A stretch of 37,281 nucleotides of DNA from a virus. Where the stretch lies: positions 1 to 37,281 of IMG/VR virus record IMGVR_UViG_3300042542_001562; one strand, written 5' to 3'. The notes beneath the pieces are model-generated. The model had not been told where the DNA came from. It saw nothing but the letters and a program-made list of their open reading frames with translations, and did no database searches. Below are positions 3,351-28,390 of the stretch, piece after piece. The position numbers and the translations under genes were made by a program. The stretch's first letter is position 1; each line of letters starts with the position of its first letter.

Positions 3351-3788
3351 TTACTTGATTCTATCGGCTAAGAATGTATTCCACTCTGGCTCATGCTTAA
3401 GTACATAGATAGTCTTGCATTTATCTAATGCACCTCTAGCAGATGGGCAGAAGTATCCCTTATAGATACCACCATCCTTGCTTGGGCCTTGGAGTGCAGT
3501 CATCTTACCGTGAGGACATGTGCGCCCCCCACCTAACGATTGCGTTGGAGGGGCTTGGTTAAAAGGTGGTATCTCCTGTGCATTGAACGCTTGTTTAGCA
3601 TATGCAATAGCATTTGGAGCTTGAGATGGCTTAGCTATAACTTCTAGTTCTGTTATAGCAGATTGAATACTTGCTAATGAGGTAGCAACTAATTGGTCTA
3701 GTTCCTCACCTGTGTTAGCACGTACTGTTAACTGCGTACCTGATGCAGTTCTTATGTTGATACTGATTGGTGCTTCCGTACTACTCAT
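3351..3788 (-). CDS. Zinc-binding hypothetical protein, 145 aa
   Basis: ATG 3788 is chosen over an upstream in-frame ATG at 3833 because AAAGGAG lies directly upstream; it overlaps the nuclease gene by 8 nt. The N-terminal 50 residues form a beta-rich start and an amphipathic helix (TGEELDQLVATSLASIQSAI), the middle is Pro/Gln/Ala-rich and probably flexible, and the C-terminal part has C91-P-H93, C114 and C124 as a likely zinc site near GKMTALQGPSKDG. I do not recognise a named family. Position between a RecB-like nuclease and the helicase suggests an ssDNA-binding or recombination cofactor, which is inference only. Confidence 0.75.
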   Translation of the reverse strand: MSSTEAPISINIRTASGTQLTVRANTGEELDQLVATSLASIQSAITELEVIAKPSQAPNAIAYAKQAFNAQEIPPFNQAPPTQSLGGGRTCPHGKMTALQGPSKDGGIYKGYFCPSARGALDKCKTIYVLKHEPEWNTFLADRIK

Positions 3789-4410
3789 GCTTCTCCTTTG
3801 GTGTATACCATTGACATTGTGCAGTATATCCACACATTATGCAATGGTCGAAGTTAGGTAAAAATATACCAGACTTCCTTGCCTTATCAAACATATCTAC
3901 CAACGTCTCGACCTTGCTGTCATCCAGACCAGCAAGGTCGTGCGGTGGAGATAATTCTCCCTTACGTGCCATCCAGTAGTAACCTTTGGTTATGTTTAAA
4001 CCAAACTGTTTACGGATTCCATATGCATAGAAGGCTAACTGTAATGAACTATGCGGTGTAGTCTTACCTGTTTTTAAATCTACGATTACATATTCTTTAT
4101 TGAAACTATCATAGAACACCCGGTCGATTGCCATCTTAACTGTCACACCATTAACTACCGGTGCTAGTTCTAATTCAATTGCCAATGTCCCGTCGTCTAG
4201 CTTAGCGATTGACATGTGGGTATTTTCTTCACGCCATTGCACCCAGTTCTCTAGGAATTTATATCCATTCGCATACCACCACTCTCCATCTTCTGGATTG
4301 CGTGACTTCATTGCAGCCATGCGCCAATTGGATGTGTCGCTTAAATTATATTCTTCTCTTTCGTCAGCAGTAGCCTGCCACCATGTGTTCCAATGTTCTA
4401 AGATACTCAA
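3781..4410 (-). CDS. Cas4/RecB-like exonuclease, C-terminal part (split gene)
   Basis: This 209-residue frame holds most of a RecB/AddB/Cas4-type nuclease: D96 in AIDRV, D111-x-K113 in IVDLKTGK, the LQLAFYAYG helix (Gln motif), and a C-terminal C190-x2-C193-x5-C199 set that in this family binds an iron-sulphur cluster with one earlier Cys. That Cys and the N-terminal His are missing here but present in the preceding ORF, so the two encode one enzyme. The only start near the junction is TTG 4410, overlapping the upstream stop as TTGA. Likely role: processing DNA ends for phage recombination or degrading host DNA. Confidence 0.88.
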   Translation of the reverse strand: MSILEHWNTWWQATADEREEYNLSDTSNWRMAAMKSRNPEDGEWWYANGYKFLENWVQWREENTHMSIAKLDDGTLAIELELAPVVNGVTVKMAIDRVFYDSFNKEYVIVDLKTGKTTPHSSLQLAFYAYGIRKQFGLNITKGYYWMARKGELSPPHDLAGLDDSKVETLVDMFDKARKSGIFLPNFDHCIMCGYTAQCQWYTPKEKHE

Positions 4411-4595
4411 GGGTTCAACCTATCCCATTCTTCAGTCGCCTTATGTACGGCTGAACCTCCATAGAACCACCATGCTGGTAGCTCTGCAATTTTTTGTACT
4501 CTGCTTAAATAATATTTCCATCCACATGATAACCATTCAGTAAGTGATGAGTATGAAACGTGAATAGGTAAATCGTGGTCATCAATCTTAATCAT
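4407..4595 (-). CDS. Cas4/RecB-like exonuclease, N-terminal part (split gene)
   Basis: Sixty-two residues carrying the first elements of the Cas4/RecB nuclease fold: SYSSLTEWLSC (C24, the first Fe-S cysteine) and GGSAVHKATEEWD (the active-site His at 51). It ends at TGA 4407 just as the -1 frame opens into the rest of the domain. The codons at the junction read AAC CCT TGA; a -1 slip of the CCT-decoding tRNA onto CCC would read through into the downstream part. AAGGAG precedes ATG 4595 by 5 nt. This is the first gene after the promoter at 4656. Alternatives are a natural two-chain enzyme or a one-base assembly error. Confidence 0.85.
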   Translation of the reverse strand: MIKIDDHDLPIHVSYSSLTEWLSCGWKYYLSRVQKIAELPAWWFYGGSAVHKATEEWDRLNP

Positions 4596-4684: not shown

Positions 4685-4720
4685 ATGAACTAAACTAGTG
4701 CCTTATTAGTGTACCACTAG
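4676..4720. repeat. Cluster of CACTAG/CTAGTG inverted repeats, possible operator
   Basis: Plus-strand hexamers: CACTAG 4676-4681, CTAGTG 4695-4700, TTAGTG 4706-4711 (one mismatch) and CACTAG 4715-4720. They form two inverted pairs with spacers of 13 and 3 nt. The first copy overlaps the predicted -35 element and the last overlaps the stop codon of the amidotransferase gene. The outer pair could also form a small hairpin in RNA. An operator is the simpler reading; no cognate regulator was recognised in the window. Confidence 0.45.
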
Positions 4721-5616
4721 AACGGGATAGCGTCCTGTCCTAGTTTCTTTGTGTGTCCTACCCGCCCATTCGGGTACCCACACTGACATAGTTCAGCAAC
4801 GTTCTCGCAATCAAAGCAAGAGCCACACCAGGTACATGTACCCATGCTCTCCCATAAATCAGCTTCTGATATCCATGCGCTGCAATTAAAACATTCTTGT
4901 ACTTCTAATTCATTATCTGGTTTGTCTTGTTTGATTGTATCTTTGGCTAACTTATTATACCCGCCGCTAGCCCAAGCATACTCATCATCGTAATCACCAT
5001 ACCAACCAGCGTACCGGCCAGTAACATTTGCTGTACCATAGGAATAACCTAAGTTACATGTATCGTTAGACCACCATACACCTGACTCATCTTCTTTGCC
5101 TGACTCAGCATTGAGTAGATACATAGGGTGCTTAGCGGCAGGGTCAATAGTAATGATACATACCTTTGAACCAGATGTATATTCTTGTAGCATATTCCAG
5201 ATGAAGTCATCATCTAGTGCGGTAACCCCACCTAATCTAGGTATTAACTCTTCAGCAAATACTTTAGTATCACTGCGGTCATCTTTATCTGGTATCTCAA
5301 TAGGTAAGATACCGTTATGCCCAAGATAGGTACGGTCATCATGACCTACTGCAAATGGGTGGCAATTCTCTAGTGTGCGAGAACCATGAGTAGCAAACCG
5401 AGCATGCCACATGGCATAGCCATCTTGATAGATAGCACGTTGTGCTAAGAACCTATTGATAGATTCATCTGCGTCCATGCTTTTCTCTACTATGATTCTG
5501 TTCTCACTAGGTACGGCAATGGCAAAGCCAAAGCCATGTGGATTATTTAATGCAGAGTTCTCCAACTTATCTCTTGACGGAGTAACTCCTGGTGGTAGTA
5601 CGCATAACATACACAT
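4717..5616 (-). CDS. Class-II glutamine amidotransferase with C-terminal zinc region
   Basis: The N-terminus reads Met-Cys, so removal of Met exposes Cys2 as the Ntn nucleophile of a GATase class-II domain. Other family motifs follow: HARFATHG 71-78, NCHPF 84-88 and the GHNG loop 99-102. This domain (about 1-190) releases ammonia from glutamine. The C-terminal part has eight Cys (242, 245, 261, 264, 267, 270, 277, 279), probably a pair of zinc sites. No synthetase domain is fused; the partner is the amidoligase gene 2 nt upstream in the same operon. AGAGGA precedes ATG 5616. The pairing with GS-like amidoligases is known for phages and bacteria; the amidated substrate is unknown. Confidence 0.9.
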   Translation of the reverse strand: MCMLCVLPPGVTPSRDKLENSALNNPHGFGFAIAVPSENRIIVEKSMDADESINRFLAQRAIYQDGYAMWHARFATHGSRTLENCHPFAVGHDDRTYLGHNGILPIEIPDKDDRSDTKVFAEELIPRLGGVTALDDDFIWNMLQEYTSGSKVCIITIDPAAKHPMYLLNAESGKEDESGVWWSNDTCNLGYSYGTANVTGRYAGWYGDYDDEYAWASGGYNKLAKDTIKQDKPDNELEVQECFNCSAWISEADLWESMGTCTWCGSCFDCENVAELCQCGYPNGRVGHTKKLGQDAIPF

Positions 5617-5618
5617 GA

Positions 5619-6938
5619 TTAGTCCTCTCTACTCTCATTGTGTGAATCGCTATTGAATGAACGATTGATTGTCTCAAACAAATTAGGATACTTATCGGTA
5701 TTAGAACCGATGTAACCTACATACTTTACCCAAGAGAATGGTTTATCTTTGGGGATTATCTTAAGCTCACGAGTATATTCAACTACTGAATGAACAAACT
5801 CTAAGCCAGATAATATTCTAGGTATATGTAATGAACCCTTAAACACACGAACTTCTAATGTATTATCTGGCTCGACATTAACGGCAGCATACCTACCATT
5901 TGATTGACTCTTGTATTTAACCTTTGGAATAATCTTACCTGCGTCAGAGAAGCTAGCGTAGTTAGAACTACGACCAGCAATCCTCTGTACTTGGCGTTCA
6001 TTATCATAGATTAGTTTAATGAATCTAATCTGATGGTCGTCATCATCGAATGCAGTACGACTTACATGTACGTGCAATCCACAAGTACTAGTATTCCAAG
6101 ACCTGAATCTTAACTTCTTAAGTTCAGTTAGCATAGTCCAAGGAAAATTCTTTTGATACTCTTCAAGTGTATGCGGATGAGTAACAATTTCGAAGCCATT
6201 TGCCAATGAACCATCACTCTTAAGATAGCCACGATACTTGCGATTACGCATTGGATTCATAGCATTATGTGCTAGTTCAGCACCTATTGCATAGTTATCA
6301 TTGGTATCTTCTACCTCTAGTTCAAAGCCAAGGTAGTACTTAGCTTCACCCCAAAATCTAGGGTCAGGTTTATAACTCCAGCTATGCACCCACTCACTGT
6401 AGTTTCGGTTATTATTTTCACAACTATGACCGTTCTCTTCACCAAAACATTCACCGCAATCATCACACTCTATCTCTTGATTGTAACAATCACGGCACCT
6501 GCTATCTTGATGTAACTCAGACCAGTATAAATCGTCTGCGTCACCAAACATTTGATTACATTCATCACATGCAACATAATCAGGATTGTTTTCTTCCCAT
6601 TGTTCTGAACATGATGGGCAGTATAATTTGTTATGAATATAATTCATCTTAACTTTAGGTACACCGCCGGTGTGCCATCCACCCCAACGACTACCTAAAA
6701 AATAGTGATTACATTCATCACATTGTGTAGCACATCTTTTATGACCATAGATTATTTCAAGGCAGTCATTGTCAGAAGATATTCTTGCAGACATTTGTAC
6801 CTTTGAGTATCTATAATTCCAGACGGCGTCAACATCACCTGTTGTGTCTGGCTCTGCATATATGTCATTACATACACCACATACATCTCGTATGGTTTCG
6901 GTAACGACATCACTTGATGTCTCTACTACATCAGGCAT
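5619..6938 (-). CDS. GS-like amidoligase with N-terminal multi-zinc-finger region
   Basis: Residues 200-395 match the putative amidoligase family (glutamine-synthetase fold): YLGFELEVE 202-210, KSDGSL 240-245, GFEIVTHP 248-255, CGLHVHVSR 286-294 and EVRVFKG 362-368 supply the Glu/His/Arg positions expected for ATP, metal and carboxylate binding. Such enzymes join an amine or ammonia to a carboxylate in an ATP-dependent way. Residues 18-175 contain at least eight CxxC-type pairs (for example C20/C23, C73/C76, C107/C110, C124/C127, C148/C151, C158/C161), so several zinc ribbons precede the catalytic domain and may hold the target. AGAAAGGAAA precedes ATG 6938. It is the direct neighbour of its likely ammonia supplier. 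The target could be peptide, wall or another metabolite; unknown. Confidence 0.88.
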   Translation of the reverse strand: MPDVVETSSDVVTETIRDVCGVCNDIYAEPDTTGDVDAVWNYRYSKVQMSARISSDNDCLEIIYGHKRCATQCDECNHYFLGSRWGGWHTGGVPKVKMNYIHNKLYCPSCSEQWEENNPDYVACDECNQMFGDADDLYWSELHQDSRCRDCYNQEIECDDCGECFGEENGHSCENNNRNYSEWVHSWSYKPDPRFWGEAKYYLGFELEVEDTNDNYAIGAELAHNAMNPMRNRKYRGYLKSDGSLANGFEIVTHPHTLEEYQKNFPWTMLTELKKLRFRSWNTSTCGLHVHVSRTAFDDDDHQIRFIKLIYDNERQVQRIAGRSSNYASFSDAGKIIPKVKYKSQSNGRYAAVNVEPDNTLEVRVFKGSLHIPRILSGLEFVHSVVEYTRELKIIPKDKPFSWVKYVGYIGSNTDKYPNLFETINRSFNSDSHNESRED

Positions 6939-6953
6939 TGCATTTCCTTTCTG

Positions 6954-7400
6954 TTAGTACCAACCGTGTTTACGGTGGTGTGTCCAAGCAATAGACGGAC
7001 GTCCATATCTATGTTCTATATAGGCCAGCCCACGCTCAATCTGACGCGGGGCTGGCGCTTTAGGGTCCAGTCCTAATATCTGTGGTATACCACCCGCATG
7101 TTTACCTGTATGTTTATCTGCACTCTTATTGAAAGCTTCATGCCTCCAGTTAGATTCAGCAGTCCACAATTTATTTAAAGCTATGAACTCTGATGAGTTC
7201 CAGTCGTACATCATGTTCATGTATGCACGTGCATAAGTTTTAGCAAGGCGCGGTGTCCAATGAGAGTTAGGTGCCTCTTTACATTCTGCCCTACTACCTA
7301 CTGCTATTGCATATGCAGATGATGGATACCCAATCAACCCAGTAAAGATTAACCAGAAAGAACTTAAGAGAGATAGAGCACGTTTAACTTTATCTTTCAT
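6954..7400 (-). CDS. Secreted transglycosylase-like (APF/SLT-type) wall hydrolase
   Basis: A signal peptide is clear: basic start (MKDKVKR), hydrophobic core about 9-26, and a likely cleavage site after AYA at 29-31. The mature domain has the layout of actinobacterial aggregation-promoting-factor or lytic-transglycosylase-like domains: KLWTAESNWRHEA with E82 as the probable catalytic acid, AGGIPQILG 102-110, IERGLAYIEHRYG and a terminal HGWY. It would cut glycan strands of peptidoglycan outside the membrane. At 148 residues it is a minimal single domain. It lies 15 nt upstream of the amidoligase, in the early arm rather than beside the holin-like gene, so a wall-remodelling role is as likely as lysis. 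Confidence 0.85.
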   Translation of the reverse strand: MKDKVKRALSLLSSFWLIFTGLIGYPSSAYAIAVGSRAECKEAPNSHWTPRLAKTYARAYMNMMYDWNSSEFIALNKLWTAESNWRHEAFNKSADKHTGKHAGGIPQILGLDPKAPAPRQIERGLAYIEHRYGRPSIAWTHHRKHGWY

Positions 7401-15145: not shown

Positions 15146-15715
15146 GTGACGGCTATTGTTGGAATTCAAGGCAAAGGTTGGGCTGTCCTAGCAGCAGATT
15201 CTATGACTACATATACAGATAGACCGTATGTAGCAAAAGGTTGCGACAAGATAGTTAAAATTGGTGAGTATCTAATTGCAGTAGCAGGTGATGCTATAGC
15301 AGGAGATATCCTTAATAATTTATGGCAACCACCTAAAGTAATTAAGACGCAAGACCCAGATAGATTTATGATGATTAGAGTTTTACCATCTATCAAGCAA
15401 GCATTAAATGAAGCAGGCTATGACCCAACACCTAAGGGCAAGAGCGATGATGATTCTGGCTGGGATGCGTTAATTTGTTTTAATGGAAAGTTATATCAAG
15501 TTAGTGATGACTATGGATATATGCGAGACGATAGAGGATTTTACGGAATTGGTTCAGGCGGTGGACTAGCTCTTGGTGCATTAGTCGCAATGGAAGTTGA
15601 AACTAAGACACATGCTAAAGCAACAAGTGCGGCAAAGAAAGCAGTTAATGCAGCAATCCAATATAATATTTGGTGCGGTGGAACAGTTAATATCAAAACT
15701 CAATTTACTAAGTAG
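15146..15715 (+). CDS. Proteasome beta/HslV-like Ntn-hydrolase, candidate prohead protease
   Basis: The GTG start at 15146 (GGGGG upstream) gives Met-Thr, so Met removal exposes Thr as N-terminal nucleophile as in HslV and proteasome beta subunits. Motifs follow at family spacing: TAIVGIQGKGWAVLAADS with Asp at mature position 17, DKIVKIG with Lys at mature 34, AVAGDAIAGD and the GIGSGGGLALGAL loop. The length of 189 residues fits one beta-type subunit. Such subunits form rings with inward active sites and need an unfoldase partner; none is encoded here. Position between portal and scaffold/capsid genes makes capsid maturation the likely job, replacing the usual serine prohead protease. That role is inference; the fold call is strong. 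Confidence 0.85.
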   Translation: MTAIVGIQGKGWAVLAADSMTTYTDRPYVAKGCDKIVKIGEYLIAVAGDAIAGDILNNLWQPPKVIKTQDPDRFMMIRVLPSIKQALNEAGYDPTPKGKSDDDSGWDALICFNGKLYQVSDDYGYMRDDRGFYGIGSGGGLALGALVAMEVETKTHAKATSAAKKAVNAAIQYNIWCGGTVNIKTQFTK

Positions 15716-15723
15716 GAGTATAA

Positions 15724-16146
15724 ATGGCAAATGGACGTGGCGGATATCGTCAACCTAGTAATCCAGCACCTGTATCAGGTCCAGGCGCTTTGTCAAAGCG
15801 TACTGATGGTGGTGCAACTGAAGGTATGACTCAAGCTCCTAAGTACATGGCTGGAATGAGATACGGCATGGGTGGAAATATGGAACAACAATCTGGTGCT
15901 CCTATGCAAGGGACTGATATACCTTCTACTCCAACTCCTATAGTGCCATTAAGCGCACCTACAAGCCGTCCTGAAGAACCTATTACAGCCGGTGCTGACT
16001 TCGGTGAAGGTCCTGGCTCAGAGGCTTTAATGGGTATGCCATCTCCTCAAATTAATATTACTAACATCCTTAGCAGACTTGCTCAGTATGATGACTCAGG
16101 AGACGCAGAGCTTATCTATCGCAGGTTACTAGATAGCGGTTACTAA
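15724..16146 (+). CDS. Conserved phage head-module protein, 140 aa
   Basis: The first 35 residues (RGGYRQPSNPAPVSGPGALSKRTDGG region) belong to a motif I recall as widespread in aquatic phages beside portal genes; it is Gly/Pro-rich and has no known fold. The middle is Met/Pro/Gly-rich and disordered, the last 35 residues (ITNILSRLAQYDDSGDAELIYRRLLDSG) form a helical end. It may be a small scaffold or head-assembly peptide. AGGAG precedes ATG 15724 and the stop overlaps the next start by one nucleotide. Confidence 0.75.
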   Translation: MANGRGGYRQPSNPAPVSGPGALSKRTDGGATEGMTQAPKYMAGMRYGMGGNMEQQSGAPMQGTDIPSTPTPIVPLSAPTSRPEEPITAGADFGEGPGSEALMGMPSPQINITNILSRLAQYDDSGDAELIYRRLLDSGY

Positions 16147-19100
16147 TGCCTAGACTACCGCGTCCAGTAGTAGCTCAGACATCTCAAGGTCTATATAATG
16201 CAGTTGCTTCAGCTAACCTTTCGCCTGAAGAAGATGGCATGATTACGCAGATGTCTTATGCGTATCAAGAAGGTTTAAGATTAAGTAAACTATCTCCCGA
16301 TAAAGCTAAAGCAGATTTTGATATTTTAAATGATAGTGCTAAAAGAGACGTTAGAGTTCTGTTTCCAAATGAAGAATACTCTAAGCCTGAACAAAGTTTA
16401 TTAGGAAAAGGTTTAAGTGTTGCTGGCAAAATAGCTAATGTTCCTTACAAGTTTTTTGGTTCTCCTTTTCTTGGTACATTCTCAGCTTTAGAAAAATATG
16501 GTAAGACACTTAATACGCCAGCTCGTGTAGCATTTCAAGCTACAACTTTAGACAAGCCTTTGTTTTCTCAAAACACTTGGTCAGATGCTTATAAAGGTAA
16601 AGATTTTTATAATCCAAATGATGTTAAGAATCTTGAAGAGAAATATGGTAGAGCTAATGCCGCAGTTGCAATGGGTATTGCTGCTGCTAAAACTCCAGGT
16701 GAGATTATTAAAGACTGGGGCAAGGTAGATGCAGAGATAACTCAAGCACTTGCTGATTCATTAGATGACCCAGATAAGTTTGAACCTATTCTTAAAGAAA
16801 CAAAATTAGCAAGATTTTCTCCTGGTCGTTCAATTATACGTATGGTATATGATGAACAACATCCAGTACTTTCAACAATATGGTTCTCTGCCTTTGGCAG
16901 ACCAATGGAAGTTCCTGGTCAATCTCCAGAAGTTAAAGCTGCAAATGCAGCCTATAAAGCCAATGTAATGGCTAAGCAATCTGGAACTATTGACGCTATT
17001 TATCAAGTGATAATTTCTCCTGATACTTACCTAACCATGGGTCTTAGTAAGATACCTTTAATTGGTTCTAGGTTAGCTGGAGCTGCTGTCGCAAGAGGAG
17101 CCGATGAGGCTGGCTTTCTTGTTGCCGGACAAGGTAATAAAGGTAGAGTATTAGCTAATAAAATATTAGCGGCTAAACCAGAGGAACTAAACCTTACCGT
17201 TCGTGAGACTTTTCAAAGACCAGATGTATTTGGCTTGTGGCAAAATGAAGTTGGTCCAGTAGTTAAAGCATTTACTGAGGCTAAGGATAACACAGCTAAG
17301 GCAGAAATATTTAGAAATTTTAGAATTACTTATCCAGAATTCAATGACCTTGCAGTATTTAAACTGTATTCTAAAAACAATGTATTTGATGCAGCATCTG
17401 CTGAGAAGTTTTTTACTACCGCAGATAATGCAAGATATTTAATAGGCGGAAGATTAGACGGTACTACTTTTTATCGCAATGGTGTAGCTACTGCACGTGC
17501 ATCTCGTCAATTCACATCAGGAATTGCTCGTAAGGTAGACGCAATATTTAATCCAACAATAGGAAATATTGCTGCCAGAGATACCCTTGAAAAGGCTACT
17601 GCTGCACATGAACGTGGTTGGGAAATCCTTACACGTTTAGGTGAAGAAGCTGATTTGGGAGTTAACCCAAACATAACAAAACTTATAGACATTGAAAACG
17701 ATATGTCTAAAACACGTAAATTAGCATTTAAAATAGGCACAGCAGCTGGCAGAAGTCCTACTAGTAGTGGTATTAGATATGGCGATGACGCCATTGAGAC
17801 TGTTTCTGAGTTTAGAAACATGGCTGCATTAGTAGTAGATAGAGATTTTGCAGATACATGGGCATTAAACTATTTAGATTTAGATTCTGCTCAACAAGTA
17901 GTAGCTATTCGTAACCTTTATGCTGCATATTTTCAGAAACAAGGCTTTGAAGGATTACCTGGCGGTAAAAACTACACGCAAAAAATATTAGACAGAACAT
18001 TTAATCATCATGCTGGCTTCGGTGTTACCTCTAAGGTGGAAATACGTAGAGATTTAGCGGACATGATGGACCCTAGTGCTATTGAATATGAAAATGGTAT
18101 TCCGTATTTAAGAAACCGTGGTATTACTCATGGATTCCAAGCGGCTGGAATGATTGCTCCATTACCTTTTGAAGAGATTGCTGCTACAAAAGCAATGCTT
18201 GGTATGAAAGACCAGGCTGGTCACTTTACTTTAAGAAATGGCATACCTTCTCTGTTTGATGGCATGCATAGAAACTATTTTATGCGTGCAGTTACTGATA
18301 CTTGGGCTGTTCTTACCCTAGGTATTCGTCAAGGTCTACGAACTTCTATAGACCACTTCACGTTTTATGCATTTACTGCTCCTGGCGACGCTATTAAAGA
18401 CTTTGCAGTTGGAGAATCAAGAAAACTAGGCAAGGTTCTTACTGTTGCTACTGGTTCTAAGGCAGCTGTTGGTCCATATAAGCGTTTGTTTAACAAACTG
18501 TTTCTTAATGGTGGTTTAGAGCAACGTCTTACCAAGGGTGACCGATTAGAGATTGTAAAAGACTTACAAAAAGAAATGTCTGAAAAGCTTGGGTACGATG
18601 TACCGATGCAAGAAGTTAGCAATGTTTTAATTAGACAAGAATCTGGTAAGCGTGCTTGGGATATTCTATTCAAGGGCCAAACCGATGAAGCTCAACAAGA
18701 CATTATGGATTTATTAGTATATCAACCAGATACTATCGATGCAATGCAAAGAGCCGTTAGCGCAAAATCAAACTTAAGCGGTAGATTTGATGATGAGGTT
18801 AGAAATCTAACCCTTCCTGAGTCTAATGTAACTAGAGCGGTTGAAGATGTTGGTTTGAAATTAGGCAGGAAGTGGAAACCTATTTCCACTAGAGAACTTG
18901 CTCAACTAAATCAACAGTATCCAGCATTAGCACACTATGATAACTGGGCATTGCGTTTTGCATTTAATAGAATTCAACTTGCTGAGTATAAATCTTTTAG
19001 TCCTGTATCAGCATTTTTTATGCACAATGGATTAAGAGATACCAAGGATATTGAGAGAGCTAGACAATCTATCCTTAAACAAGTTGGTGTTAATTACTAT

Positions 19101-22004
19101 TCAGAAGAAGACCAAGCTATCCAACTAGCTAATAGGACTATCAATTCTGGTGGAGCATCAGGCGCAGATACAGTATTTGGTCGCGAAGGTGCAGTATTTG
19201 GAATGAATGTTAAGGCTCATTCATTTGATGGCCATAAGATTCAACCTGGTTCTGGTACTCAAGTTATTCATACACAGCAAGAGCTTGAAATTGCTGATGA
19301 CTTAATGAAAACTGTAAATGAAAAATATTTAAAGAGAGCGTTTCCTCCGACCAATAAATATGTAGCTAATTTATTGCGTAGAAATTACTATCAAGTAAAA
19401 GATTCTGAGGCTGTTGTTGCTATAGGTCGTATTGATAATAATGTCGTTCAAGGTGGAACAGCCTGGGCTGTCTATGCTGGTATTGAACTTAATAAACCAG
19501 TTCATGTATTTGATATGAATGTCAATAAATGGTTTACATGGGCAGATGGTGCTTGGTCACAATCAGATACGATTCCTGCTTATAGAAATTTTGCTGGTAT
19601 TGGTAGTAGAGATATATCTCCAGCTGGTACAAGAGCAGTTAAAGAGTATTTAACCAATATGTCTCTTATTAAGCCTGGTATATCATTAAAGGTTTTTGAT
19701 GTAGATTTACTAAGACGTTTTGTTACCAAGTTTGGTGATACAGTTGCATTTCGTGAAAGAGGTTTAACTGACGAACAAGTATCTCTTATTCTTGTAGATA
19801 ACATGTTGGCTGATATGCAGGTTGCTTTCCATGGCGGAGCTAATTCCTATAATCAAGAGCTAATGAACCTAGTTAAAGAAAAACATTTTGATATTACAGA
19901 AGCAGCAGCTAGACGTTCTAAGCGTATCCCATCTGATGCATGGGAAAAATCTGTATCTAGTATTGAGTTTTCTGACTTTGAAAAGGTTACGGTTAACATG
20001 CACCCAAGTGGTGAGATTAACACACGTATTGATTTCCTTAATGAAGATATGGAAGGAAACTTTAGGAAGTTTGGCAATGCTATTTATGAGCAAGCAGACC
20101 GTCAAGCAACTGGTTTGTTTAGCCAACCAGTCTTAGTCTATACATACAAAACCTTGCGTCAATCTTATAGAAACCAAGAGAAACTATTTGCTAAACAACA
20201 AGAGGCTAGGCTTATAGAACAAGACCCATTCAATAGTAAAGCTAAAGAAATTGCTACTGATTTGGCACGTAAAAGATATGCTGAAATAGCGCATAATGAT
20301 GCTATATATACAATATTAAAGTACATAGATAACCCTGCTATTAGAAGCAATTTCTCTATGTCTGTTAGACACGTAGGCAGATTCTATCGTGCAACTGAAG
20401 ACTTCTATCGTCGTTACTATCGTATGTTACGTGATAAGCCACTTCAAACTGCGTATCGCATGCGGTTATTACATCAAGGTCTACAGTCTTCTGGCAGTGT
20501 ACACAAAGACCAAGACGGTGTCGAGTACTTTATCTTCCCAACAGATACGGTTATCAATGGTGCAATTGAGCCAGTAGTACGTAAACTATCTGGTAACAAT
20601 CAATTTAAAGTACCTCAATTTGATAACTTTAAAATGAAATTACAGATGCTTAACCCATCTTTCTCACCTGATGCTGGTATACCTACCTTCTCTGCACCTG
20701 CTGCTTCGGTAACCATACTTGCAATAGATGGATTATTGGGTAAGTATGGTAATGCTTTTACGTCTAACTTAGGCGAGAGTTTTAAGCAAGCCACACTAGG
20801 TAGCTTTGGCGAAACCATGAGTTTCCGCAGTGCTGTTATCCCTATGTATGTTGAGAATGCTATTAGATTAAGCAAGCCAGCACAGGAGATTCTTGGTATT
20901 ACTGATATAGAACACAAGACTCGTGAAGAGAAGAGCGCTGCTATGCAGGCTATCTCTTACATGCAGGCATACGGTAATCAACCATTACCAGAGAATCCTA
21001 CACCTCAAGAGCGTAATGATTACTTAAAAGCAATAAGTATATCAACAAGCAACTTACTGTTTATGCGTGGTTTCTTAGGTATGTTCTCACCTGTATCTGC
21101 ATCTTTACAAGAGAGCAAAGGTGTTCCAGATTATTACAAGCAGATTGGTATAACCAGTCTACGTAATGAATTCTATGACATATTAGATGGCATAAAGCAG
21201 ACATATGGTACTGATATTCAAGATGCTTATGCCCTTGCTACTGCTATCTTTGTGGCTAATAACCCAAAGAAGAGTATCTACTTAGCTTCTCGAAACGATA
21301 AGCAAACAAGTATTCTAATTAACAAGACTCAACAGGTTAAAGACTGGGCTCTAAGTAATAAAGACTTTATAGATACTTATGGCGAGACTGCTTATATCTT
21401 TGCACCAAAGGTAGGAGACTTTAATCCTGCAGTATATAACTGGTTGGAGTCACAAGACCTACTGGGTCAGCCTGACTTAGAAGTATACCTAGAAAGAGTG
21501 CTAGTAGCAGAGGATAAAGCTGCTTACTTTAATATTGCTAATAAGGAAAAAGAAGCTTTGGCTAATACTACTAGTATCAGTCAACGTCAAGCTATTATCA
21601 ATAATGCAACAAGAAGTCGTCAGACTTTGTTGAACTCTAATCCATATTTACTGGAAGCCTTACAAAGTAAGAATAGTTTTCCTTCAGAGAAGATAATGTT
21701 AGACAACCTATCTACATTACTATCTGATGAAAACACCCCTATACCTGATATTACACGGGTTAAAATGAGGGCGGCAGTTAATGAGGTTCAAGGGTTTATA
21801 GCACTTGCTACTGACCAAGAATACAAATCATCACCTTACTTTGTCGATTCTAAACGTATAAGAAAAGCTGAGATTGAAAAACTTATTGAAGATTTAAGGA
21901 CTGGAGACCTTGTTATGACTGAAGCGTACAGAGCTGTATTACAGCCAATACTTGATTTCTATTCACGGGATACATATGTAGCATTCAGAAAGGCTAACTA
22001 CTAA
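16146..22004 (+). CDS. Giant virion protein, 1952 aa, with embedded SLOG-like domain
   Basis: One continuous frame of nearly 5.9 kb, mostly helical and Ala/Lys/Asp-rich, resembling the large internal or ejected proteins of podoviruses. Residues about 990-1185 differ: NSGGASGAD at 1000-1008, KDSEAVVAIG, VVQGGTAWAVYAGIELNKPVHVFD and FAGIGSRDIS at 1150-1158 are the signature pieces of SLOG/YpsA-DprA-type nucleotide-binding domains, here in circularly permuted order (GIGSR after the GGAxGAD loop). SLOG domains bind nucleotides or NAD-related ligands. No lysozyme or polymerase motif was recognised elsewhere. There is no tape-measure gene, so delivery into the host with DNA is plausible. The start overlaps the previous gene by one nucleotide. 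Confidence 0.8.
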   Translation: MPRLPRPVVAQTSQGLYNAVASANLSPEEDGMITQMSYAYQEGLRLSKLSPDKAKADFDILNDSAKRDVRVLFPNEEYSKPEQSLLGKGLSVAGKIANVPYKFFGSPFLGTFSALEKYGKTLNTPARVAFQATTLDKPLFSQNTWSDAYKGKDFYNPNDVKNLEEKYGRANAAVAMGIAAAKTPGEIIKDWGKVDAEITQALADSLDDPDKFEPILKETKLARFSPGRSIIRMVYDEQHPVLSTIWFSAFGRPMEVPGQSPEVKAANAAYKANVMAKQSGTIDAIYQVIISPDTYLTMGLSKIPLIGSRLAGAAVARGADEAGFLVAGQGNKGRVLANKILAAKPEELNLTVRETFQRPDVFGLWQNEVGPVVKAFTEAKDNTAKAEIFRNFRITYPEFNDLAVFKLYSKNNVFDAASAEKFFTTADNARYLIGGRLDGTTFYRNGVATARASRQFTSGIARKVDAIFNPTIGNIAARDTLEKATAAHERGWEILTRLGEEADLGVNPNITKLIDIENDMSKTRKLAFKIGTAAGRSPTSSGIRYGDDAIETVSEFRNMAALVVDRDFADTWALNYLDLDSAQQVVAIRNLYAAYFQKQGFEGLPGGKNYTQKILDRTFNHHAGFGVTSKVEIRRDLADMMDPSAIEYENGIPYLRNRGITHGFQAAGMIAPLPFEEIAATKAMLGMKDQAGHFTLRNGIPSLFDGMHRNYFMRAVTDTWAVLTLGIRQGLRTSIDHFTFYAFTAPGDAIKDFAVGESRKLGKVLTVATGSKAAVGPYKRLFNKLFLNGGLEQRLTKGDRLEIVKDLQKEMSEKLGYDVPMQEVSNVLIRQESGKRAWDILFKGQTDEAQQDIMDLLVYQPDTIDAMQRAVSAKSNLSGRFDDEVRNLTLPESNVTRAVEDVGLKLGRKWKPISTRELAQLNQQYPALAHYDNWALRFAFNRIQLAEYKSFSPVSAFFMHNGLRDTKDIERARQSILKQVGVNYYSEEDQAIQLANRTINSGGASGADTVFGREGAVFGMNVKAHSFDGHKIQPGSGTQVIHTQQELEIADDLMKTVNEKYLKRAFPPTNKYVANLLRRNYYQVKDSEAVVAIGRIDNNVVQGGTAWAVYAGIELNKPVHVFDMNVNKWFTWADGAWSQSDTIPAYRNFAGIGSRDISPAGTRAVKEYLTNMSLIKPGISLKVFDVDLLRRFVTKFGDTVAFRERGLTDEQVSLILVDNMLADMQVAFHGGANSYNQELMNLVKEKHFDITEAAARRSKRIPSDAWEKSVSSIEFSDFEKVTVNMHPSGEINTRIDFLNEDMEGNFRKFGNAIYEQADRQATGLFSQPVLVYTYKTLRQSYRNQEKLFAKQQEARLIEQDPFNSKAKEIATDLARKRYAEIAHNDAIYTILKYIDNPAIRSNFSMSVRHVGRFYRATEDFYRRYYRMLRDKPLQTAYRMRLLHQGLQSSGSVHKDQDGVEYFIFPTDTVINGAIEPVVRKLSGNNQFKVPQFDNFKMKLQMLNPSFSPDAGIPTFSAPAASVTILAIDGLLGKYGNAFTSNLGESFKQATLGSFGETMSFRSAVIPMYVENAIRLSKPAQEILGITDIEHKTREEKSAAMQAISYMQAYGNQPLPENPTPQERNDYLKAISISTSNLLFMRGFLGMFSPVSASLQESKGVPDYYKQIGITSLRNEFYDILDGIKQTYGTDIQDAYALATAIFVANNPKKSIYLASRNDKQTSILINKTQQVKDWALSNKDFIDTYGETAYIFAPKVGDFNPAVYNWLESQDLLGQPDLEVYLERVLVAEDKAAYFNIANKEKEALANTTSISQRQAIINNATRSRQTLLNSNPYLLEALQSKNSFPSEKIMLDNLSTLLSDENTPIPDITRVKMRAAVNEVQGFIALATDQEYKSSPYFVDSKRIRKAEIEKLIEDLRTGDLVMTEAYRAVLQPILDFYSRDTYVAFRKANY

Positions 22005-27673: not shown

Positions 27674-28390
27674 ATGCAAGAGACGGTATCAATCGCTTGG
27701 TGCGACAACGGTATGGTGGATGGCAAGTTTATGCAAGGCATAACAGATGTAATGTTAAAGTCTGGAGTAACCTTCAGTTCTACGTTGCGAAGTCAAGGTA
27801 ATCAGATTGCTAGACAAAGACAAACAGTAATTGAGCATTGGTATGAGAAGTCTAAGTCTGACTGGCTGCTATGGGTAGACTCAGATATAGTTATTAGTCC
27901 AGAAAAATTTAAATTATTATGGGACAACAAGGATGCCAAAGAGCGTCCATTAATTTCTGGAGTATACTTTACTACAGATAATCCAGAGGAACCTTTGATG
28001 GTTCCAATGCCTACTGTATATAGTTTTACTAATAAAGGTGATGGAACATTTGGTTTAGCCAGAATTCATCCACTGCCAGAAAATAAAATAATTAAGGCTG
28101 ATGCAGCAGGGTTTGGATTTATCCTTATGCATCGCAGTATAGTTGAAAAAGTTAAAGCCGTAGCACCTGATGGTCAGATGTTTATGGAAATGGGTAGAGG
28201 CACTAAGTTTATAGGAGAAGATATATTCTTCTTTATGTTATGCGATAAGGCAGAGGTTCCGCTCTATTGCCATACCGGAGCGCTAGTACCACATATGAAA
28301 CGATTCTCATTTGATGAACATTATTACAAAGCATTTATGGGTTCTCCTGAAAAGGAAAAACCTAAGTCTAAAATCATTATACCTAGATAG
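27674..28390 (+). CDS. GT-A-fold glycosyltransferase-like protein
   Basis: Residues 60-75 (SDWLLWVDSDIVIS) hold a DxD metal-nucleotide-sugar site (D69-S-D71), preceded by LRSQGNQIARQRQTVIEHW, and followed by AAGFGFILMHRSIVEKV and GEDIFFFMLC, the acceptor-side and catalytic ED region of family-2-like transferases. It would transfer a sugar from a nucleotide-sugar to a protein, glycan or DNA base; the target is not shown. Placed among head and tail genes, virion protein glycosylation or host surface change are both possible. A run of eight G (27663-27670) forms part of the ribosome site before ATG 27674. Confidence 0.8.
   Translation: MQETVSIAWCDNGMVDGKFMQGITDVMLKSGVTFSSTLRSQGNQIARQRQTVIEHWYEKSKSDWLLWVDSDIVISPEKFKLLWDNKDAKERPLISGVYFTTDNPEEPLMVPMPTVYSFTNKGDGTFGLARIHPLPENKIIKADAAGFGFILMHRSIVEKVKAVAPDGQMFMEMGRGTKFIGEDIFFFMLCDKAEVPLYCHTGALVPHMKRFSFDEHYYKAFMGSPEKEKPKSKIIIPR

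Follow-up and report, generated by a model that had tools for sequence, protein, structure and literature searches.

A virus record of 37,281 bases from IMG/VR (the window, as the whole stretch of DNA analysed is termed here) carries two adjacent genes which had been read, from the sequence alone, as an amidoligase with a zinc-finger region and a dedicated class-II glutamine amidotransferase (GATase). The locus raises the question of what the two products are, whether they belong together and what they might modify. Both open reading frames were found where that reading had placed them, and the motifs FELEVE, CGLHVHVSR, EVRVFKG, Cys2, HARFATHG and HNG were all present (Table 1). Translation of the two frames is likely to be coupled, given the short gap between them, and a purine-rich AGAGGA lies ~10 nt upstream of the GATase ATG. 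Comparison with relatives gave dN/dS values of 0.1-0.3, indicating purifying selection on the pair; this, with the invariance of 13 of 16 putative zinc ligands in 42 relatives and the retention of catalytic residues by 120-122 of 122 amidoligases, rules out chance reading frames.

Table 1. Features of the amidoligase-GATase locus in the window
Feature	Position	Strand	Remarks
Amidoligase ORF	5619..6938	-	439 aa; first of the two genes; stop TAA at 5619-5621
Putative N-terminal Cys/His module	6420..6881	-	Amidoligase residues 20-173
Predicted GS-fold catalytic core	5643..6347	-	Amidoligase residues 198-432
Intergenic gap, amidoligase/GATase	5617..5618	-	2 nt
Class-II glutamine amidotransferase (GATase) ORF	4717..5616	-	299 aa; second gene; ATG at 5614-5616
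Predicted Ntn glutaminase domain	5062..5616	-	GATase residues 1-185; Cys2 nucleophile, H71-R73-T76, H100-N101-G102, D116
GATase C-terminal Cys module	4780..4893	-	GATase residues 242-279; 8 Cys, which could form two zinc sites

The genes surrounding the pair were assigned with Pfam and PHROGs. The pair is followed on the minus strand by ORFs for a PD-(D/E)XK exonuclease, an L5/D29 gp49-like protein, a DnaB-like helicase, a RusA-like resolvase and a primase, and therefore adjoins replication genes. The exonuclease is divided between two overlapping ORFs (3781-4410 and 4407-4595, minus strand) that match separate parts of PF12705; the relative L011 retains the same 209-aa ORF, so the division may be old. 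The zinc-binding (1674-2036) and Toprim (1190-1819) parts of the primase are likewise separate, overlapping ORFs. Three genes elsewhere on the plus strand were also observed: an HslV/proteasome-like Ntn peptidase immediately downstream of the portal gene (15146-15715; PHROG 1040, 1e-27; Pfam Proteasome), possibly a capsid maturation protease; a 1952-aa protein (16146-22004) with a DprA-like domain at residues 996-1133 (PHROG 768, 5e-11) and nothing further in Pfam or PHROGs; and a glycosyltransferase amid the structural genes (27674-28390; PHROG 34859, 2e-78). The terminase of the window was nearest to that of an unnamed Caudovirales record and next to those of Streptomyces phages, and a WhiB gene lies near the pair in relatives of the locus, from which the host is probably an actinobacterium. 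An Rfam search gave no matches to RNA elements, and the pair matched no known anti-phage defence model in PADLOC.

The first protein is a glutamine synthetase (GS)-fold amidoligase, as judged from its Pfam match, predicted fold and residues. It scored 23.7 bits against Amidoligase_2 (PF12224; gathering cut-off 22), all 42 aligned relatives matched that family at E<=1, and it belongs to PHROG 16683 (5e-36), a family of unknown function in PHROGs. An AF2 model built with its own relatives as input had a pLDDT of 80.5 overall and ~90 in the core. In Foldseek/VIA the core matched YbdK (Z 12.4), GS (Z ~11-12) and plant glutamate-cysteine ligase (GCL; Z 11.8), with Dop/PafA also among the matches; TM-scores over the whole model were low, with residues 197-438 as the aligned portion. 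A sequence search against solved structures gave no relative of the amidoligase, chains of YbdK, GCL and GS included. The residues expected to handle metal and ATP (ExE, D, E, HxH, R and ExR) were retained across the alignment, with E206, E208, D242, E250, H289, H291, R323, N354, E362 and R364 each kept in 120-122 of 122 cores. The order of the conserved acidic, His and Arg residues is presumably that of YbdK, GCL and GS; a one-to-one match with GCS/GS residues is presumed and does not come from a superposition. The predicted fold contains a GS-like active site, and its catalytic residues, like those of the GATase, are essentially invariant in more than 100 lineages, so that two of the outcomes that would have counted against the sequence-only reading did not occur.

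The second protein is a class-II glutamine amidotransferase on similar predicted grounds. GATase_4 was matched at 28 bits (cut-off 23), and the N-terminal Cys, Arg, Asn-Gly and Asp are all kept; the family is PHROG 25883 (5e-35), again of unknown function in PHROGs. The AF2 model, made from its own relatives, had a pLDDT of 71.4, with the glutaminase domain at ~90 and the C-terminal tail poor, and its fold matches in Foldseek were the GlmS glutaminase (5.9e-8), PurF and EgtC. Among 104 partner GATases NG was present in 103 and HxRxxT in 100, while all 104 begin with MC, a start that was itself selected by searching for MC. Both family calls of the sequence-only reading are therefore upheld.

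Ahead of the amidoligase core lies a Cys-rich region. The earlier count of at least eight Cys pairs was slightly generous: there are 16 Cys and seven CxxC, of which the conserved subset is 14 Cys with H66 and H171, and the three ligands of this subset that are not invariant in the 42 relatives are nearly so. Ligand spacing is consistent with four putative zinc sites of C3H or C4 type, which we propose to be C20-C23-H66-C69, C73-C76-C107-C110, C124-C127-C148-C151 and C158-C161-H171-C173, and the module may accordingly bind zinc. The AF2 model is of moderate confidence here, and no known zinc-finger family exceeded its Pfam cut-off in the window protein, relatives giving weak matches at best. 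The eight Cys with which the GATase had been said to end were all found to be conserved within its clade (seven invariant and C277 nearly so in 24 relatives). This tail is shared by the window clade, Marvin, actinomycetes and mycobacterial plasmids, and by few other partners, whose amidoligases still carry the Cys module; being nearly confined to the actinobacterial group, the tail is a feature separate from the amidoligase module. The suggestion that zinc modules on both partners dock the two proteins was consequently rejected as a general rule, as the amidoligase module occurs in nearly every GATase-linked relative whereas the tail is almost restricted to actinobacterial phages, plasmids and chromosomes.

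Relatives of the amidoligase were found in at least 592 candidate stretches in scans of IMG/VR, and a genome scan yielded 167, of which 80 were kept, from actinomycetes, Clostridia, Ignavibacteria and others. Nearly every amidoligase among close viral relatives is followed on the same strand by a GATase, with a gap of -1 to ~35 nt. The two genes also recur as neighbours on one strand, usually amidoligase first, in phages, actinomycetes, Clostridia, Ignavibacteria and mycobacterial plasmids, which bears out a dedicated pairing across phage, plasmid and bacterial lineages. No fusion of the two genes was found among the relatives, and fusion was dropped as a proof of interaction. Variants of the arrangement were observed: three tandem pairs in ~7 kb of Nocardia vaccinii (L117), and two amidoligases with one common GATase at five loci (L131, L159, L163, L220 and L221).

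The association between module and partner was counted for complete amidoligases away from contig edges, clustered at 70% identity, a GATase counting as nearby up to 3.5 kb away on the same strand. By profile, 110 clusters had module and GATase, one the module without a GATase, six a GATase without the module and four neither, an association that depends partly on the starting points of the scans. In the lone exception (L031) the profile had missed a GATase at 4921-5829, so that all 111 module-bearing clusters are paired, one of them added by hand. The converse rule, that a GATase implies a Cys module, fails: among the six clusters, L222, L225 and the distant L030 appear genuine (we read the others as truncated ORFs or fragments), and the LUZ24 cassette combines a GATase with an amidoligase lacking the module. 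The clusters with neither feature comprise giant Pseudonocardia proteins and the Clostridioides difficile phage type with its relatives, and these zinc-less amidoligases mostly have no GATase nearby. Such forms belong to few lineages, so that the linkage, though strong in counts, depends on a small number of independent changes. The giant Pseudonocardia ORFs (L164, L177, L143 and L166; at least 2,660-3,920 aa) have a central amidoligase core, and neither a Cys module nor a GATase was found. The identity matrices of amidoligases and GATases were correlated (Mantel r 0.69, with none of 999 permutations as high), as is also expected from simple co-inheritance.

Carriers of the pair include actinophages, methylotroph phages, gut phages, three mycobacterial plasmids and regions of Clostridia bearing integrases or resolvases. 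A resolvase family was present in 39-41 of the bacterial loci and an integrase-like one in 13, whereas a relaxase, ArdC-like, SmpB or methyltransferase gene lies near the pair only in single cases. No conserved third gene was seen across all carriers, the resolvases and integrases of bacteria and the WhiB of actinophages being context genes. A modification role, as first suggested, is a natural inference from the two families; "phage modification system" proved too narrow a description, given the mycobacterial plasmids and bacterial mobile-element contexts. In one Ignavibacteria locus (L138), which also holds a resolvase-like gene, the pair stands beside TIR-domain and Aga-like defence genes, a possible defence island.

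These data appear to suggest, with moderate confidence on our part, that the pair is a two-protein glutamine-dependent amide synthetase carried on mobile DNA, with a zinc module that serves to couple the GATase or to hold a macromolecular acceptor. The GATase would free ammonia from glutamine by means of its N-terminal Cys, the amidoligase would activate a carboxylate with Mg-ATP, and the ammonia, presumably passed on within a complex of the two proteins, would be joined to it to give a carboxamide. The Cys/His module would most likely serve as a platform holding the GATase against the ligase, or as the holder of the acceptor. We infer a host macromolecule as the probable acceptor, in view of the large size of the module and of the lack of any visible biosynthetic pathway common to the phages, plasmids and integrating elements that carry the pair. 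A more specific and speculative version, which we consider doubtful, has a host protein as the acceptor, its Asp/Glu or C-terminal carboxylates being amidated soon after entry; if true, host takeover or counter-defence would here make use of an enzymatic protein modification of a new kind.

The module may instead be unrelated to the GATase, reading a protein or nucleic acid target while the GATase is a mere source of ammonia, the joint loss in the C. difficile type then reflecting a change of substrate or amine donor. This has a real, if lesser, chance of being correct. The size of the module varies strongly, some lineages having a compact Cys cluster and others at least 10 CxxC, as would suit a target reader, and L222, L225 and LUZ24 pair a GATase with a module-less ligase, so ammonia coupling can be independent of the module. 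However, a target reader need not follow the presence of a GATase as tightly as in 111 of 111 clusters, and most paired lineages have a Cys-rich stretch close to the catalytic core.

It is unlikely that the amidoligase couples amino acids or peptides in place of ammonia, with the Ntn protein a processing peptidase or deamidase. The GS-fold kin Dop/PafA, GCL and GmaS do use other amines or hydrolyse amides, and the fold matches of the GATase include EgtC, an Ntn hydrolase by which gamma-glutamyl groups are removed; yet the GATase retains the glutamine-binding set HxRxAT, HNG and D116, and the domains that it matches best hydrolyse glutamine.

Amidation of peptidoglycan stem peptides or their precursors in the infected cell, blocking superinfection or altering lysis, is quite improbable. 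It is the proposal for phiEco32-type cassettes quoted in PMC10580990 and PMC5498523, and a transglycosylase-like ORF (6954-7400; PHROG 12661/15428) stands directly upstream of the pair in the window. Such a neighbour was present in 16 loci only, and the hosts of the carriers differ greatly in wall type. Furthermore, the companion genes of that cassette (ATP-grasp, a second COOH-NH2 ligase and gamma-glutamyl cyclotransferase) were not found by Pfam among ~20 window proteins, covering most genes around the pair; identity with the peptidoglycan cassette was rejected, and the host wall peptides named in the sequence-only reading gained no supporting evidence as the target. A step in DNA or nucleotide hypermodification is very improbable. 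In its favour, the window has a DUF1599 gene ('Nucleotide modification associated domain 1') at 510-926 on the minus strand, and a related family lies near the pair in 52 viral loci; against it, that family was found only in viral loci of the window's own type, and the genes of a carboxylated-base pathway were not seen.

Set against known systems, the favoured reading of a glutamine-dependent amide synthetase extends observations already made in part. Pairs of this kind have been noted in phages for more than 10 years, and no function for them was found in the literature. The pairing itself is already known from Marvin and the OM43 phages; the linkage of zinc module to GATase is apparently new within the literature searched, where no paper found contained it or the module, and Iyer 2009 could contain it. 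YbdK, GCL and GS share the core fold with the window amidoligase (Z ~12) and differ in having neither a Cys module nor a GATase partner. Cassettes of the phiEco32/LUZ24 type, reportedly described by Iyer et al. in 2009, resemble the window in placing a PF12224 amidoligase near a class-II GATase; they also have RimK-type ATP-grasp and UPF0131/GGCT genes, and LUZ24 gp18 lacks the Cys module and falls below our core profile. The OM43/Methylophilales phages MEP401 and MEP402, whose pair was reported in PMC10580990 with citation of Iyer 2009 and the Marvin paper, have the genes adjacent and in identical order beside primase and helicase genes, but with few CxxC ahead of the core and no GATase Cys tail.

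The closest counterpart is gp105/gp106 of the cluster S mycobacteriophage Marvin, whose annotation goes no further than glutamine amidotransferase domain proteins, with no function shown. As in the window, an amidoligase with a CxxC region is followed directly by a class-II GATase with an 8-Cys tail, at 29% and 33% identity, respectively; the N-terminal Cys region of Marvin is shorter and its C-terminus longer. The close association of Cys module with GATase, together with the occurrence of the pair in phages, plasmids and integrating elements, gives what had been a loose annotation the shape of a two-protein enzyme open to experiment: the module can be deleted, the catalytic residues are clear, zinc-less and GATase-less forms offer natural controls, and Marvin and MEP401/402 are carriers that can be cultured.
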